DNA from: Gammaproteobacteria bacterium
GTDB taxonomy: Bacteria; Pseudomonadota; Gammaproteobacteria; DSM-19610
Direction of reading: 5' to 3'
DNA length: 42,738 nt
NCBI GenBank assembly: GCA_011374975.1
Contig: DRNU01000138.1
Span: 1 to 42,738, forward strand
This document shows positions 8,214 through 20,541 of the stretch, piece after piece (within the stretch, counting starts at the first letter, position 1; every line of letters begins with the position of its first letter). Made by a program: the position numbers and the translations under genes. Below the pieces are notes generated by a model that was not told the DNA's origin, made no database searches, and was given only the letters and a program-made list of their open reading frames with translations.

Positions 8214-8935
<722 letters not shown>

Positions 8936-9050: not shown

Positions 9051-10550
9051 ATGAAGCAGTCCATCCAGCTCAGGCTTGGCCAGCACCTGACCATGACCCC
9101 CCAGTTGCAACAGGCAATCCGCCTGCTGCAGCTCTCCACGCTGGAACTGCAACTCGAGGTCCAGGGCATCCTCGATTCCAACCTGATGCTGGAACCGGAT
9201 GAAGCCGACGCCCCCGCCAGCGCCGACAGCAACATGGAAGCCGGCCAGGAACAGCGCAACAAGAACGAGGCGGAAGCCGGCAATGAAACCCCGCCGGACA
9301 GCCCGGAAGCCGAGGTCTCAAGCGCCAGCGAAACTATTCCCGAAGACCTGCCGGTCGACACCAACTGGGAAGACACCTTCGACATGGGCGCCACCAGTTT
9401 CAGCGCCCCGGCCGACGGCGACGGCAGGGATTTCTTCGAAACCCACACCGGCTCCGGCGAAACCCTGCACGAACACCTGGCCTGGCAACTGGACCTGACC
9501 CGCTTCAGCGATATCGACCGCCATATCGCCGAAACCATCATCGATTCCATCAATGACGACGGCTACCTGAAAGCCAGCCTGGAAGAGCTGCGGGAAGGCC
9601 TGGATCTCGACCCCGAGCTGGGAATCGGCGTCGAGGAGATCGAGGCCGTACTGCACCGCATCCAGCATTTTGACCCGGTCGGCGTCGGCGCACGCGACCC
9701 CGCCGAGTGCCTTGTCATCCAGTTGCTGGCGCTGGATCCCGACACGCCCTGCCGCAAGCAGGCGCTGCAGCTGGTGCAGGAGCACGTCACATTGCTCGGT
9801 AATCGGGACTATAATCAGATTATGCGGCGCATGAAGCTCTCCGAAGCAGAGCTTCAGGAAGTGCTGAAACTGGTCCAGTCGCTCAACCCGCGGCCCGGAT
9901 CGCAGATCACCAGCGCCACGCCGCAATATGTAGTACCAGACGTATTTGTCTTTAAAAACAAGAGCAAATGGCAGGTGGATCTGAATATTGAAGCGGCACC
10001 CCGGCTACGCATCAACAGCCATTACGCCAGTCTGGTGAAGCGTGCCGACAATAGCGAAGACAATACCTATCTGCGTAATCACCTGCAGGAGGCGCGCTGG
10101 TTCCTCAAAAGCCTGCAAAGCCGGCACGAGACGCTGCTCAAGGTGGCTCGCTGTATCGTCGACCGGCAGCGTAATTTCTTCGAGTACGGCGAGGAAGCCA
10201 TGAAACCGCTGGTGCTGCGCGACATCGCCGAAGCCGTGGAAATGCACGAATCCACCATCTCGCGCGTCACCACCCAGAAGTACATGCACACGCCACGCGG
10301 CATCTACGAATTCAAGTATTTCTTTTCCAGCCACGTCGGCACTGAAGATGGCGGCGAATGTTCGGCAACCGCCATTCGCGCCATTCTCAAGAAACTGATC
10401 GCCGCTGAAACCCCGACCAAGCCGTTGAGCGACAGCAAAATCGCCGCCCTGCTGGCCGATCAGGGCATCAAGGTAGCTCGCCGGACCATCGCCAAGTACC
10501 GCGAAGCGATGTCCATTCCCCCTTCTAATGAACGTAAACGCCTCTCCTGA
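9051..10550 (+). CDS. rpoN: RNA polymerase sigma-54 factor
   Basis: Alternative sigma factor that recognises -24/-12 promoters and needs AAA+ enhancer-binding activators. 499 residues. Region I is the Gln- and Leu-rich N-terminus ([20 protein letters not shown]). An acidic, low-complexity region II spans about residues 45-120. The core-binding region III follows, and the RpoN box [10 protein letters not shown] lies near residue 480 close to the C-terminus. ATG at 9051. It is the first gene of the rpoN-hpf-ptsN-hprK-rapZ run that links nitrogen-type transcription with the regulatory phosphotransferase system. A sigma-54-like site also lies upstream of a broken surface-protein gene in this window. 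Confidence 0.98.
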
Positions 10551-18107: not shown

Positions 18108-18608
18108 ATGAATGAAGACGATGAATTCGATCCGGAAACCGCACCGCCCAGTAAATCCCGGCTGAAGCGCGAAGCGCATGCCCTGCAACAGCTGGGCATC
18201 GACCTGCTGGATCTCTCTGAATCCGTTTGGGAGACACTCGGCCTGCCGGAGACACTCATAGCCGCCCTCACCGAGGCCAAACGCCTGCATTCACGCGGCG
18301 GCCGCAAACGGCAGTTGCAATTCATCGGCAAACTGATGCGCGACGTCGATCCCGAACCCATCGAGGCCTACTTCACCCGGCAGCGCCTCAAGGCACGCCA
18401 ACTGGCCCAGGCGCACCACCAGCTGGAGGACTGGCGCGACCGGTTGATCGACGAAGGCGACCCTGCCGCCGAGGACTTTCTGCAGCAGCACCCGCAGGCC
18501 GACCGCCAGCACCTGCGGCAACTGATCCGCCAGGCGAGAAAAGAACAGGCACAGAACAAACCGCCCAAATCCAGCCGGGCGTTGTTTCGTTATATCAGGG
18601 ACATCTAA
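18108..18608 (+). CDS. darP: Ribosome-associated protein DarP (YjgA, DUF615)
   Basis: A 166-residue, mostly helical protein of the YjgA family, which binds late 50S ribosome precursors in E. coli. Family features: acidic N-terminus, then PPSKSRLKREAHALQQLG, DLLDLSESVWETLGLPETLIAAL, GGRKRQLQFIGKLMRDVD, and a C-terminal RQLIRQARKEQAQNKPPKSS. Start at ATG 18108 (MNEDDEFDPETAPPSKSR); an open frame upstream overlaps the divergent oxygenase gene and looks unrelated. Its stop codon TAA forms part of the left end of the palindromic element that follows. Confidence 0.95.
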   Translation: MNEDDEFDPETAPPSKSRLKREAHALQQLGIDLLDLSESVWETLGLPETLIAALTEAKRLHSRGGRKRQLQFIGKLMRDVDPEPIEAYFTRQRLKARQLAQAHHQLEDWRDRLIDEGDPAAEDFLQQHPQADRQHLRQLIRQARKEQAQNKPPKSSRALFRYIRDI

Positions 18609-18713
18609 GGAAGGCCTGATTAATTCGTCATTCCGGCGAAGGCCGGGGATCCAGGCGCTGGATTCCGGCATCCGCCGGAATGACGTATACGGAATTAATC
18701 AGGGTTTCCCTAA
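18605..18713. mobile_element. MITE-like palindromic element after darP
   Basis: About 109 bases with imperfect terminal inverted repeats of 22 bases (18605-18626 against 18692-18713, 18 matches). The repeats share CCTGATTAATTC and have AGGGAA/AAGGAA toward the ends. Inside are perfect 13-base arms CGTCATTCCGGCG (18626-18638 and 18673-18685) and a central hairpin around GGATCCAG and CTGGATTCC. There is no coding capacity. Short CGTCATTCCGGCG-type elements are common dispersed repeats in proteobacteria. It overlaps the darP stop codon and may act as its transcription terminator. No second copy is seen in this window. Confidence 0.65.
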
Positions 18714-18780: not shown

Positions 18781-20174
18781 TTATGCGGCGGCTTTACGCC
18801 TGTCCATTCCAGCCAGCCCGAGCAAACCGGAACCAAACAGCCAGACGGCAGCCGGTACCGGGACGACACTCTGGTTGATAATCTGGCCCGAATCACCGAT
18901 CAGGTTGTTGTAGTAAATATTCAGCCCGTTAAGGTTCAGCAAGCCGGAAGCATCTGCAAACACCAGGGTATCGACGTACAGTGCCTCTGCGACACCGAAG
19001 CTTCCGTTACGGTTGCCGTTATCCCAGAAGTCGCTCAGGGATACCCGCCCGCGCCGATCACCAGTTCCGCAAGATCGAAATTATTGCTGAAACCCAGGGG
19101 ATCGCCAACATGGTTAAGCGGGTCGGTGCCGATATCCACGCCACCGATTTCAAGCGTACCCCAGGCACCCCAGTCGCCCACGGCAGCACCGACACCGCCG
19201 GTCATCTCCAGCGTTGACAGCGTATCGAAAGACCACAGGGTCTCGTCTGTCATTGCAAACGACAGGTCTCCCGATACCGACAGGGTGGCGTTACCAATCA
19301 TATCCAGTGTTGCGGTAGGGTCCAGGGTCAGATTGGTACCGGTCAATGTGGCATTGGTATTGATCTCCAGTGCACCGCCATTCGAAACACCGATGTCGCC
19401 GGATGTTGTGACATTTCTATTGGCGTTCAACTGGAGCTTGCCGCCGTCGGCCTGCCATTGCCCGCTACCGCTTGCATTGGCCTCCATGGCGAGCGTGCCA
19501 TTCTGTACCGTCACGCTACCGTCGTTAACCACGCCGCTGTTGACCGTCAGGGTTTCCGTAGTGCCGGCAAGTGCCACCTTAAGATTTCCGTTATTTTGAA
19601 AGCTGCCGTTGCCCAGCAAACTACGGCTGGTGCCGGTGATGTTGAAGCTCGCACCCGCCTCGTTGCGCAAGGTCAAACCGGCATTCAGCAGGCGTACCGT
19701 GCCCGCCGTCCAGTTCGCCGTCTGGCCCGTGCCGTTCACCAGTACGCGCGTGTTCTGGATATCCATGAAGTCGCTCGACATGGTCAGGCCGCCGTCCGCG
19801 CGGGTTGTACCCGCGCCTGCCATGGTGCCGGCCGTACCCGTCCAGCTGGTCAGCCCTGTAATAAAGAGGTCGTTACTTCCGTTAACAGTGCCCCCCTGAT
19901 AAAGCCAGCTCCTGTACGGTGATTGCCTGGTCCAGCGTCACGGTACCGGTTGTAACGGCAGCGGTATCGTTACTGTTCGGGAAACTGCCTAGACAATTAT
20001 TCCAGTTACTGTCCGTCCAGTTACCGATGCCACCCACCCAGACACAGTTTGCAGCACTGGCACTGAAACTGGCCGCACCTGAACAGATAAGGCCAGCAAC
20101 GAGTTCGCCGCAAGGGTTAACGATGATTTGGATTTGGCGGCGCGTGCTGCGCCATACGAGAGTGAATCATTCAT
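18781..20174 (-). pseudogene. PEP-CTERM-sorted surface protein gene, broken by three frameshifts
   Basis: Four pieces in different frames together make one protein of about 460 residues. N-terminus: MNDSLSYGAARAAKSKSS plus a signal-peptide-like segment. The first break is near 20095, after which GLICSGAASFSASAANCVW continues. The second break is at a run of six C (19891-19896; G on the coding strand). A long piece with repeated Asn/Thr/Gly-rich beta strands follows (about 19038-19890). The third break is near 19040. The last piece holds RVSLSDFWDNGN, EALYVDTLVF, LNLNGLNIYYNNL and the C-terminal sorting signal VPVPAAVWLFGSGLLGL with RRK. Such signals are recognised by exosortase in other bacteria; no exosortase gene is here. 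AGGAG lies seven bases before ATG 20174. Real decay is likelier than sequencing error, as all neighbours are intact. Confidence 0.8.
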
Positions 20175-20197
20175 CTCTGGACTCCTGGAGATTTTCT

Positions 20198-20260
20198 CAT
20201 TGCCTGAATTTCTTTGTCTGACTTGAACAGTGACGGGTCTGGGCACTGAATCAGGCAATG
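20198..20260. repeat. Nested inverted repeat in the 5' leader of the PEP-CTERM gene
   Basis: CATTGCCTGA at 20198-20207 and its exact complement TCAGGCAATG at 20251-20260, enclosing a second, weaker pair CAGTG (20228-20232) and CACTG (20244-20248). In the transcript it would fold into a long stem-loop 24 bases before the start codon. It could control translation or mRNA stability. Confidence 0.45.
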
Positions 20261-20391
20261 CTAAAGTAAATTGAAAAATATGCCGACGCAGAACGCGGCC
20301 AGCAAACGTGGTTTCTTATTGTTCCTTCTACCTGCTTACGCATCCTGGCGTTCATAACGTACTGAACCGACTGCGACGATTTATGCAGTAA

Positions 20392-20406
20392 GCAACTACC
20401 ATGCCC
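20392..20406 (-). promoter_or_regulatory. Candidate sigma-54 promoter of the PEP-CTERM gene
   Basis: On the minus strand GGGCATGGTAGTTGC has GGCA and TTGC in the sigma-54 spacing (GG and GC separated by ten bases), followed by T. Only the base before GG differs from the TGGCA core. Transcription would start near 20381, about 205 bases before the start codon. In other bacteria PEP-CTERM genes are linked to a sigma-54-type response regulator, which fits. Confidence 0.5.
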
Positions 20407-20471
20407 GCCAAACGAGGCTTATTGAAATCATGAACTTATATTTTTTTGCACCCAAAGGCACACAGCAATAA

Positions 20472-20541
20472 TGTAAAGTTTTCCTGAAGGGGTTCTGGCA
20501 TTTTTTACAGGCGCCGGAGATTTGTCGCAATCTGCCGACAA
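20472..20541. promoter_or_regulatory. Candidate upstream activator sites, two inverted repeats
   Basis: TGTAAA at 20472-20477 and TTTACA at 20504-20509 form one dyad. TTGTCG at 20522-20527 and CGACAA at 20536-20541 form a second, tighter one. Their centres lie about 110 and 150 bases upstream of the predicted sigma-54 transcription start, the usual distance for an enhancer-binding regulator. The regulator gene is not in the window. Confidence 0.35.

Follow-up and report, generated by a model that had tools for sequence, protein, structure and literature searches.

Which regulator acts on the AT-rich DNA ahead of a broken PEP-CTERM gene is the question raised by the window, the stretch of 42,738 nucleotides of a gammaproteobacterial genome that was analysed here. 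The control region begins about 55 nt past the stop codon of a nitrilase-family gene (minus strand). An initial annotation had proposed a sigma-54 promoter with two upstream dyads, both serving as target of the response regulator of the PEP-CTERM system. The region is probably a PEP-CTERM box, a sigma-54 promoter that depends on PrsR and serves one PEP-CTERM gene. Its elements and their surroundings are listed below.

18781-20174, minus strand: broken PEP-CTERM gene, read in three frames with breaks near 20.10, 19.89 and 19.05 kb
20175-20380, minus strand: leader of about 206 nt, as read from the sequence, with an inverted repeat just ahead of the ribosome-binding site
20380-20381, minus strand: expected transcription start, about 11 nt past the GC of the -12 element
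20391-20405, minus strand: sigma-54 -24/-12 element GGCATGGTAGTTGCT (motif 2 of the PEP-CTERM box), by pattern and a weight-matrix score of 12.7
20472-20488, minus strand: proximal motif 1 TTCAGGAAAACTTTACA, putative PrsR site with a variant left half, 66 nt ahead of GGCA
20493-20509, plus strand: second motif-1-like copy TTCTGGCATTTTTTACA in opposite orientation, forming an inverted repeat (10.9 bits), 4 bp from the proximal copy
20523-20540, no strand assigned: palindrome TGTCGGCAGATTGCGACA (TGTC-N10-GACA), candidate QseF/GlrR-type site by its fit to the consensus, the same class being found at the same junction in loci L077, L078 and L080
20596-21417, minus strand: nitrilase-family gene (CN_hydrolase), the upstream neighbour, by profile match; found in 19 of the 20 family genomes, our own included
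9051-10550, plus strand: rpoN, the sigma factor that the promoter needs (TIGR02395, 494 bits, over the cut-off), within the window

On the minus strand positions 20406-20392 read GGGCATGGTAGTTGC and contain the GG-N10-GC element exactly where it had been annotated, the sigma-54 core GGCATGGTAGTTGCT occupying 20405-20391. The bare GG-N10-GC pattern is close to background in the window (841 matches, 796 expected). The stricter GGCAY-N5-TTGCT occurs once in 42.7 kb against 0.20 expected, and since 18 of 100 shuffles reach at least one such match, the element by itself, without an upstream motif, is suggestive and not decisive. The composite pattern of TTTACA followed after 45-75 nt by GGCA-N6-TTGC also has a single match in the window, with an actual spacing of 66 nt, and occurred in none of 100 shuffles. 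An A-rich spacer separates proximal motif 1 from GGCATGGTAGTTGCT, and a scan for sigma-70 promoters gave nothing ahead of the broken gene on the minus strand.

This arrangement is of the type of the PEP-CTERM box, which Haft et al. (2006) reported before 99 of 167 proteobacterial PEP-CTERM genes and linked to PrsR, PrsK and the TPR protein PrsT (PMC1569441). The box was described as a 17-nt motif 1, which ends in TTTACA and is 'sometimes repeated', separated by 62.8 +/- 10.6 nt from a sigma-54 motif 2 that lies at a mean of 71 nt, and a maximum of 221, from the start codon (PMC1569441). The window shares with that description the TTTACA-ending motif, the spacer of about 63 nt, motif 2, a PEP-CTERM gene with a long intergenic region, and the presence of PrsR and PrsK. 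It differs in its variant left half, the motif-1 pair, the distance to the start codon, an extra TGTC-N10-GACA and the broken gene. The 66-nt spacer fits the published range; the 217 nt between box and ATG, as measured by our script, are near the published maximum and contrast with 38 (L005), 54 (L008), 64 (L001) and 64 nt (L022) at other boxed promoters of the same genome.

The TTTACA/sigma-54 pattern has seven matches in the own genome against none in a reversed control, and 60 against two in the 20 family genomes (summed rows). Of the 60 matched box loci 35 were read, and a weight matrix was built from 25 of these, all with a clear left half, which define motif 1 of the family as TG(T/A)CG(G/A)-N5-TTTACA. 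Their spacers fall into classes of 62-66 nt (15 loci; the main class, which includes the spacing of the window), 74-75 nt (nine loci) and 53 nt (one locus). A PEP-CTERM gene lies directly or second downstream in 8 of the 35 box loci: the window (L025), L022 (with L004), L024, L029, L036, L046, L049 and L054. Six others (L026, L037, L040, L041, L042 and L045) precede a recurrent small membrane protein, and several have no clear gene. This small protein (RRRHSWRT..TYCG..GRGRR), directly behind the box in six genomes, lacks a PEP-CTERM end.

A search for the same motif before other PEP-CTERM genes, proposed in the initial annotation as the test of its claim, showed that the motif is shared. Six of the 13 own PEP-CTERM genes tested have a box, each scoring higher than any of 60 shuffles of the DNA upstream of it (window 22.1, L001 24.9, L004 41.6 through its operon promoter L022, L005 13.9, L008 24.7, L024 39.0), three of these six promoters (window, L022 and L024) having first been met through the box pattern. 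The remaining seven showed no box, the closest being L006, whose score was reached by 4 of 60 shuffles. The 13 genes derive from 15 TIGR02595 matches, from which L007, for lack of DNA upstream, and L014 and L015, for lack of a clear gene, were dropped, and to which L024, found via its box, was added. The genome also encodes PrsR (TIGR02915, 707 bits, over the cut-off), beside which a contig end carries the C-terminal portion of PrsK (TIGR02916, 368 bits for what is present). Box type and regulator pair agree with the annotated sigma-54 promoter for the response regulator of the PEP-CTERM system.

An exosortase (EpsH), which belongs to the PEP-CTERM system and does not define the box, gave no match to TIGR02602 or PF09721 in the own assembly, which is 88.8% complete. 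PrsR is found in 15 and exosortase in 7 of the 20 family genomes; PEP-CTERM boxes and PrsR are commoner in the family than a detectable exosortase. G005, G006, G008 and G013 (91-97% complete) have PrsR and no PF09721 match, as if the regulon had outlived, or had never needed, the sorting enzyme.

Both dyads are found at their annotated places, about 92-130 and 142-161 bases upstream of a start near 20380. The TGTAAA/TTTACA dyad (20472-20509) consists of the two motif-1 copies: on the minus strand 20509-20472 the inverted pair reads TGTAAAAAATGCCAGAA-CCCC-TTCAGGAAAACTTTACA, with arms that extend to 17 nt, are 71% complementary and lie 4 nt apart. TGTAAA-N20-30-TTTACA has a single match in the window and none in 100 shuffles, and among the 35 box loci TGTAAA stands ahead of TTTACA only in the window and in L024. 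When 30 box loci were scanned for a second copy, over 46 inverted and 40 direct spacings, six scores exceeded 4 bits, of which three were inverted at 3-4 bp and the other three were scattered over other spacings. The inverted pairs at 3-4 bp were found only in three own PEP-CTERM promoters (window 10.9, L005 13.5, L024 6.8 bits). L005 and L024 both precede unbroken own PEP-CTERM genes and have copies 3 bp apart, compared with 4 bp in the window. The back-to-back layout would allow two PrsR dimers to bind side by side.

In leave-one-out comparison, motif 2 of the window scores below all 25 reference boxes (12.7 versus 13.2-25.4), and so does proximal motif 1 (9.7 versus 15.8-27.9 bits), although the left-half scores are partly circular because the reference boxes were picked partly by left half and spacing. 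The TTTACA end of motif 1 is present, and its left half, TTCAGG, differs from the relatives' TGTCGG/TGACGG, having neither the G at position 2 (25/25 reference boxes) nor the C at position 4 (24/25). Since the box of L005, which belongs to an unbroken gene, is weaker still and has a comparable TTC left half, TTCTGAAGAACCTTACA, the variant need not mean decay and does not demonstrate erosion.

The second dyad, TTGTCG/CGACAA, with a full extent of 20522-20541, is not part of the PEP-CTERM box, since TGTC-N10-GACA occurs within 200 nt of TTTACA in only 1 of the 35 box loci, the window itself. It fits the published QseF (GlrR) consensus TGTC-N10-GACA (PMC8745638), also given as TGTN12ACA (PMC6075780), and recurs in three relatives at the same junction before another gene. 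Of the proposal that both dyads are the target of the PEP-CTERM regulator, the part on the TTTACA dyad therefore stands and the part on this palindrome does not. The core TGTCG-N8-CGACA has two matches in the window against 0.06 expected. The other one, at 8274-8291, is inside an open reading frame and has no such sigma-54 site within 260 nt.

The own genome has a GlrR homologue, for which NF011695 (GlrR) is the best family (628 bits, the next family reaching 418 and the curated cut-off being 763). Its gene stands behind those of a histidine kinase and a small protein in the qseG position. At 12 nt past it the same palindrome is found (TGTCGCCGATTGGCGACA), and 152 nt further on the sigma-54 site GGCACAGCCCTTGCT, before a gene for an EF-hand-like protein (L017/L103, own contig C175) that is possibly a GlrR target other than glmY. 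The exact order of palindrome, TTTACA and sigma-54 site returned no genome_contigs record, from a set that may omit this genome and its near kin. A pattern of palindrome and sigma-54 site with a gap of 87-117 nt, applied to six genomes, matched once in each of G000 (the own genome), G006 and G011, with one control match in G004; this range misses the 86-nt gaps of G006 and G011, and the count is not used as evidence for enrichment.

The junction between the nitrilase gene and darP carries TGTCGGGAACAGGCGACA or TGTCGGGATCTGGCGACA in three relatives (G006, G011 and G019; loci L077, L078 and L080). A sigma-54 site follows 86 nt past the palindrome in G006 and G011, versus 117 nt in the window, a difference of 31 nt or about three helical turns; at the G019 junction, which also has the palindrome, no sigma-54 site could be recognised. 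The gene behind these palindromes encodes a small signal-peptide or membrane protein that shows no evident resemblance to the PEP-CTERM gene, and a related small gene on another contig in G017 has TGTCTCAGAACGGCGACA and GGCACGGCTATTGC. The small protein is present in 4 of the 20 family genomes and has no match in the own genome. The leader was considered as a remnant of its gene and rejected, the best score of 1.4 bits being below many shuffles.

The proteins at L077, L078, L080, L110 and L111, of about 73 residues, begin like signal peptides and have a single membrane helix and a basic end. Several members of this family, which has no NCBIfam match, are encoded behind TGTC-N10-GACA and a sigma-54 site. 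Among 18 relatives the distance from the nitrilase gene to darP is below 100 nt in nine, 138-649 nt in five and 1.2-1.9 kb in three; in the remaining one no darP was detected within 5 kb. The junction DNA is too divergent across relatives for a usable alignment. In the window, the distal palindrome may predate the PEP-CTERM gene at this place, or it may have arisen there twice.

The broken gene begins with an ATG at 20174, preceded by a good AGGAG ribosome-binding site. Read across its three frame breaks, it shows a signal-peptide-like start, a repetitive middle and the C-terminus VPVPAAVWLFGSGLLGLAGMDRRKAAA, of which the P-x-P, helix and basic end VPVPAAVWLFGSGLLGLAGMDRRK matches TIGR02595 at 18793-18864 with 15.4 bits, just under the cut-off of 16. 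The protein has no homologues in the 19 other family genomes, none in genome_contigs (close-relative search) and no Pfam family. Since the other genes of the window match in one frame over nearly whole profiles (PtsI-like, MgtE, DarP, nitrilase, YhdP, RNase E/G, and likewise rpoN), the three breaks within this 1.4-kb gene suggest a true pseudogene; an assembly error could also have produced them. The notion that the control region is better preserved than the gene is upheld in so far as all elements are present, compared with three frame breaks, and has to be qualified for proximal motif 1, which is off consensus at positions 2 and 4.

The leader contains a 15-nt inverted repeat (20193-20265, 87% complementary) that ends just ahead of the ribosome-binding site, and its fold is no more stable than that of shuffles (z -0.42). 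A riboswitch or other Rfam RNA was rejected as an explanation of the leader, there being no Rfam match in the window. The stretch 18600-18690, between the broken gene and darP, holds a repeat-like hairpin, GTCATTCCGGCGGATGCCGGAATCC...GGATCCCCGGCCTTCGCCGGAATGAC, with TGATTAATTC/GAATTAATCA in inverted orientation on either side; it resembles a small mobile repeat.

On the PrsR reading, the polymerase, carrying RpoN, would be poised at 20405-20391, and phosphorylated PrsR would bind the motif-1 pair at 20472-20509 and loop over the 66-nt spacer, opening the promoter for an RNA start near 20380. The palindrome at 20523-20540 would be a separate site of QseF/GlrR type, either a second input or the leftover of an older junction promoter. 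The transcript would run into a gene with three frame breaks, and therefore no full product is expected.

Counted against this reading are the scores of both motifs, the 217 nt to the ATG, the absence of the triple order from genome_contigs records, the missing exosortase match and the seven of 13 genes without a box. That the resemblance is due to chance and has no promoter function is very improbable: GG-N10-GC alone is near chance level and shuffles do reach GGCAY-N5-TTGCT, but the composite pattern and the first dyad were each absent from 100 shuffles, and the site is intergenic, ahead of a PEP-CTERM gene, and of a type enriched in the own genome and the family. A former PEP-CTERM box that is now inactive and decays along with its gene would account for the frame breaks, the scores under all reference boxes, the deviating positions 2 and 4 and the long leader. 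We nevertheless think such a dead control region unlikely, as no damage is seen in the -24/-12 core, TTTACA or either dyad, and the box of the unbroken L005 is weaker still, with a comparable left half.

A further alternative is a promoter of the QseF/GlrR regulon, in which GlrR at 20523-20540 would, as it may do at this junction in relatives, drive the sigma-54 element, TTTACA would be a by-product, and the PEP-CTERM gene would have arrived behind an older GlrR promoter. The fit to the published consensus (PMC8745638, PMC6075780), the palindromes of the same class between nitrilase and darP in G006, G011 and G019, the first two of them followed at 86 nt by a sigma-54 site, the gap difference of about three helical turns, the small gene of G017 with TGTC-N10-GACA and GGCACGGCTATTGC, and the own glrR homologue with its palindrome and sigma-54 site all agree with it. 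It would, however, make accidents of both TTTACA at box spacing and the inverted motif-1 pair; moreover, the GlrR homologue falls short of the curated cut-off, the control region has one TGTC-N10-GACA site where E. coli glmY has three QseF sites (PMC6075780), the small gene is absent from the own genome and has left no trace in the leader, and the G019 palindrome has no recognisable sigma-54 site. We regard this alternative as improbable. Dual control, with PrsR on the proximal motif-1 pair and GlrR/QseF on a distal TGTC-N10-GACA inherited from an older junction promoter behind which the PEP-CTERM gene was recruited, is put forward tentatively, as a possibility on the doubtful side.

Two characterized systems bear comparison. 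The pepA promoter of Aquincola tertiaricarbonis RN12 likewise places an RpoN-type -24/-12 element and a predicted enhancer ahead of a PEP-CTERM gene; for pepA the requirement for RpoN1 was demonstrated and the -24/-12 start mapped (PMC9850573), whereas in the window both the start and the RpoN dependence are predicted. The glmY promoters of E. coli and Proteus mirabilis share with the window a TGTC-N10-GACA upstream of a sigma-54 promoter, and their system shares the GlrR homologue behind a histidine kinase and a qseG-position gene (PMC6075780, PMC8745638). They differ in having three sites and a small RNA as target, as opposed to one site and, as would be the case here, a PEP-CTERM gene. The promoter type has been known since 2006 (PMC1569441); the new points are the inverted motif-1 pair and the likely GlrR-type distal site. 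No paper naming PEP-CTERM together with QseF or GlrR was found among the open-licence PMC papers searched.

The promoter is a clear added member of the PrsR-sigma-54 regulon in this bacterial family, for which the survey provides a motif 1 and spacings of mainly two classes, 62-66 and 74-75 nt. If functional, the distal palindrome would connect the PEP-CTERM/exopolysaccharide system with the envelope pathway of QseE/QseF (GlrK/GlrR), and dual control, if true, would tie the production of a surface protein to envelope sensing, GlrR/QseF being a regulator of the cell envelope.
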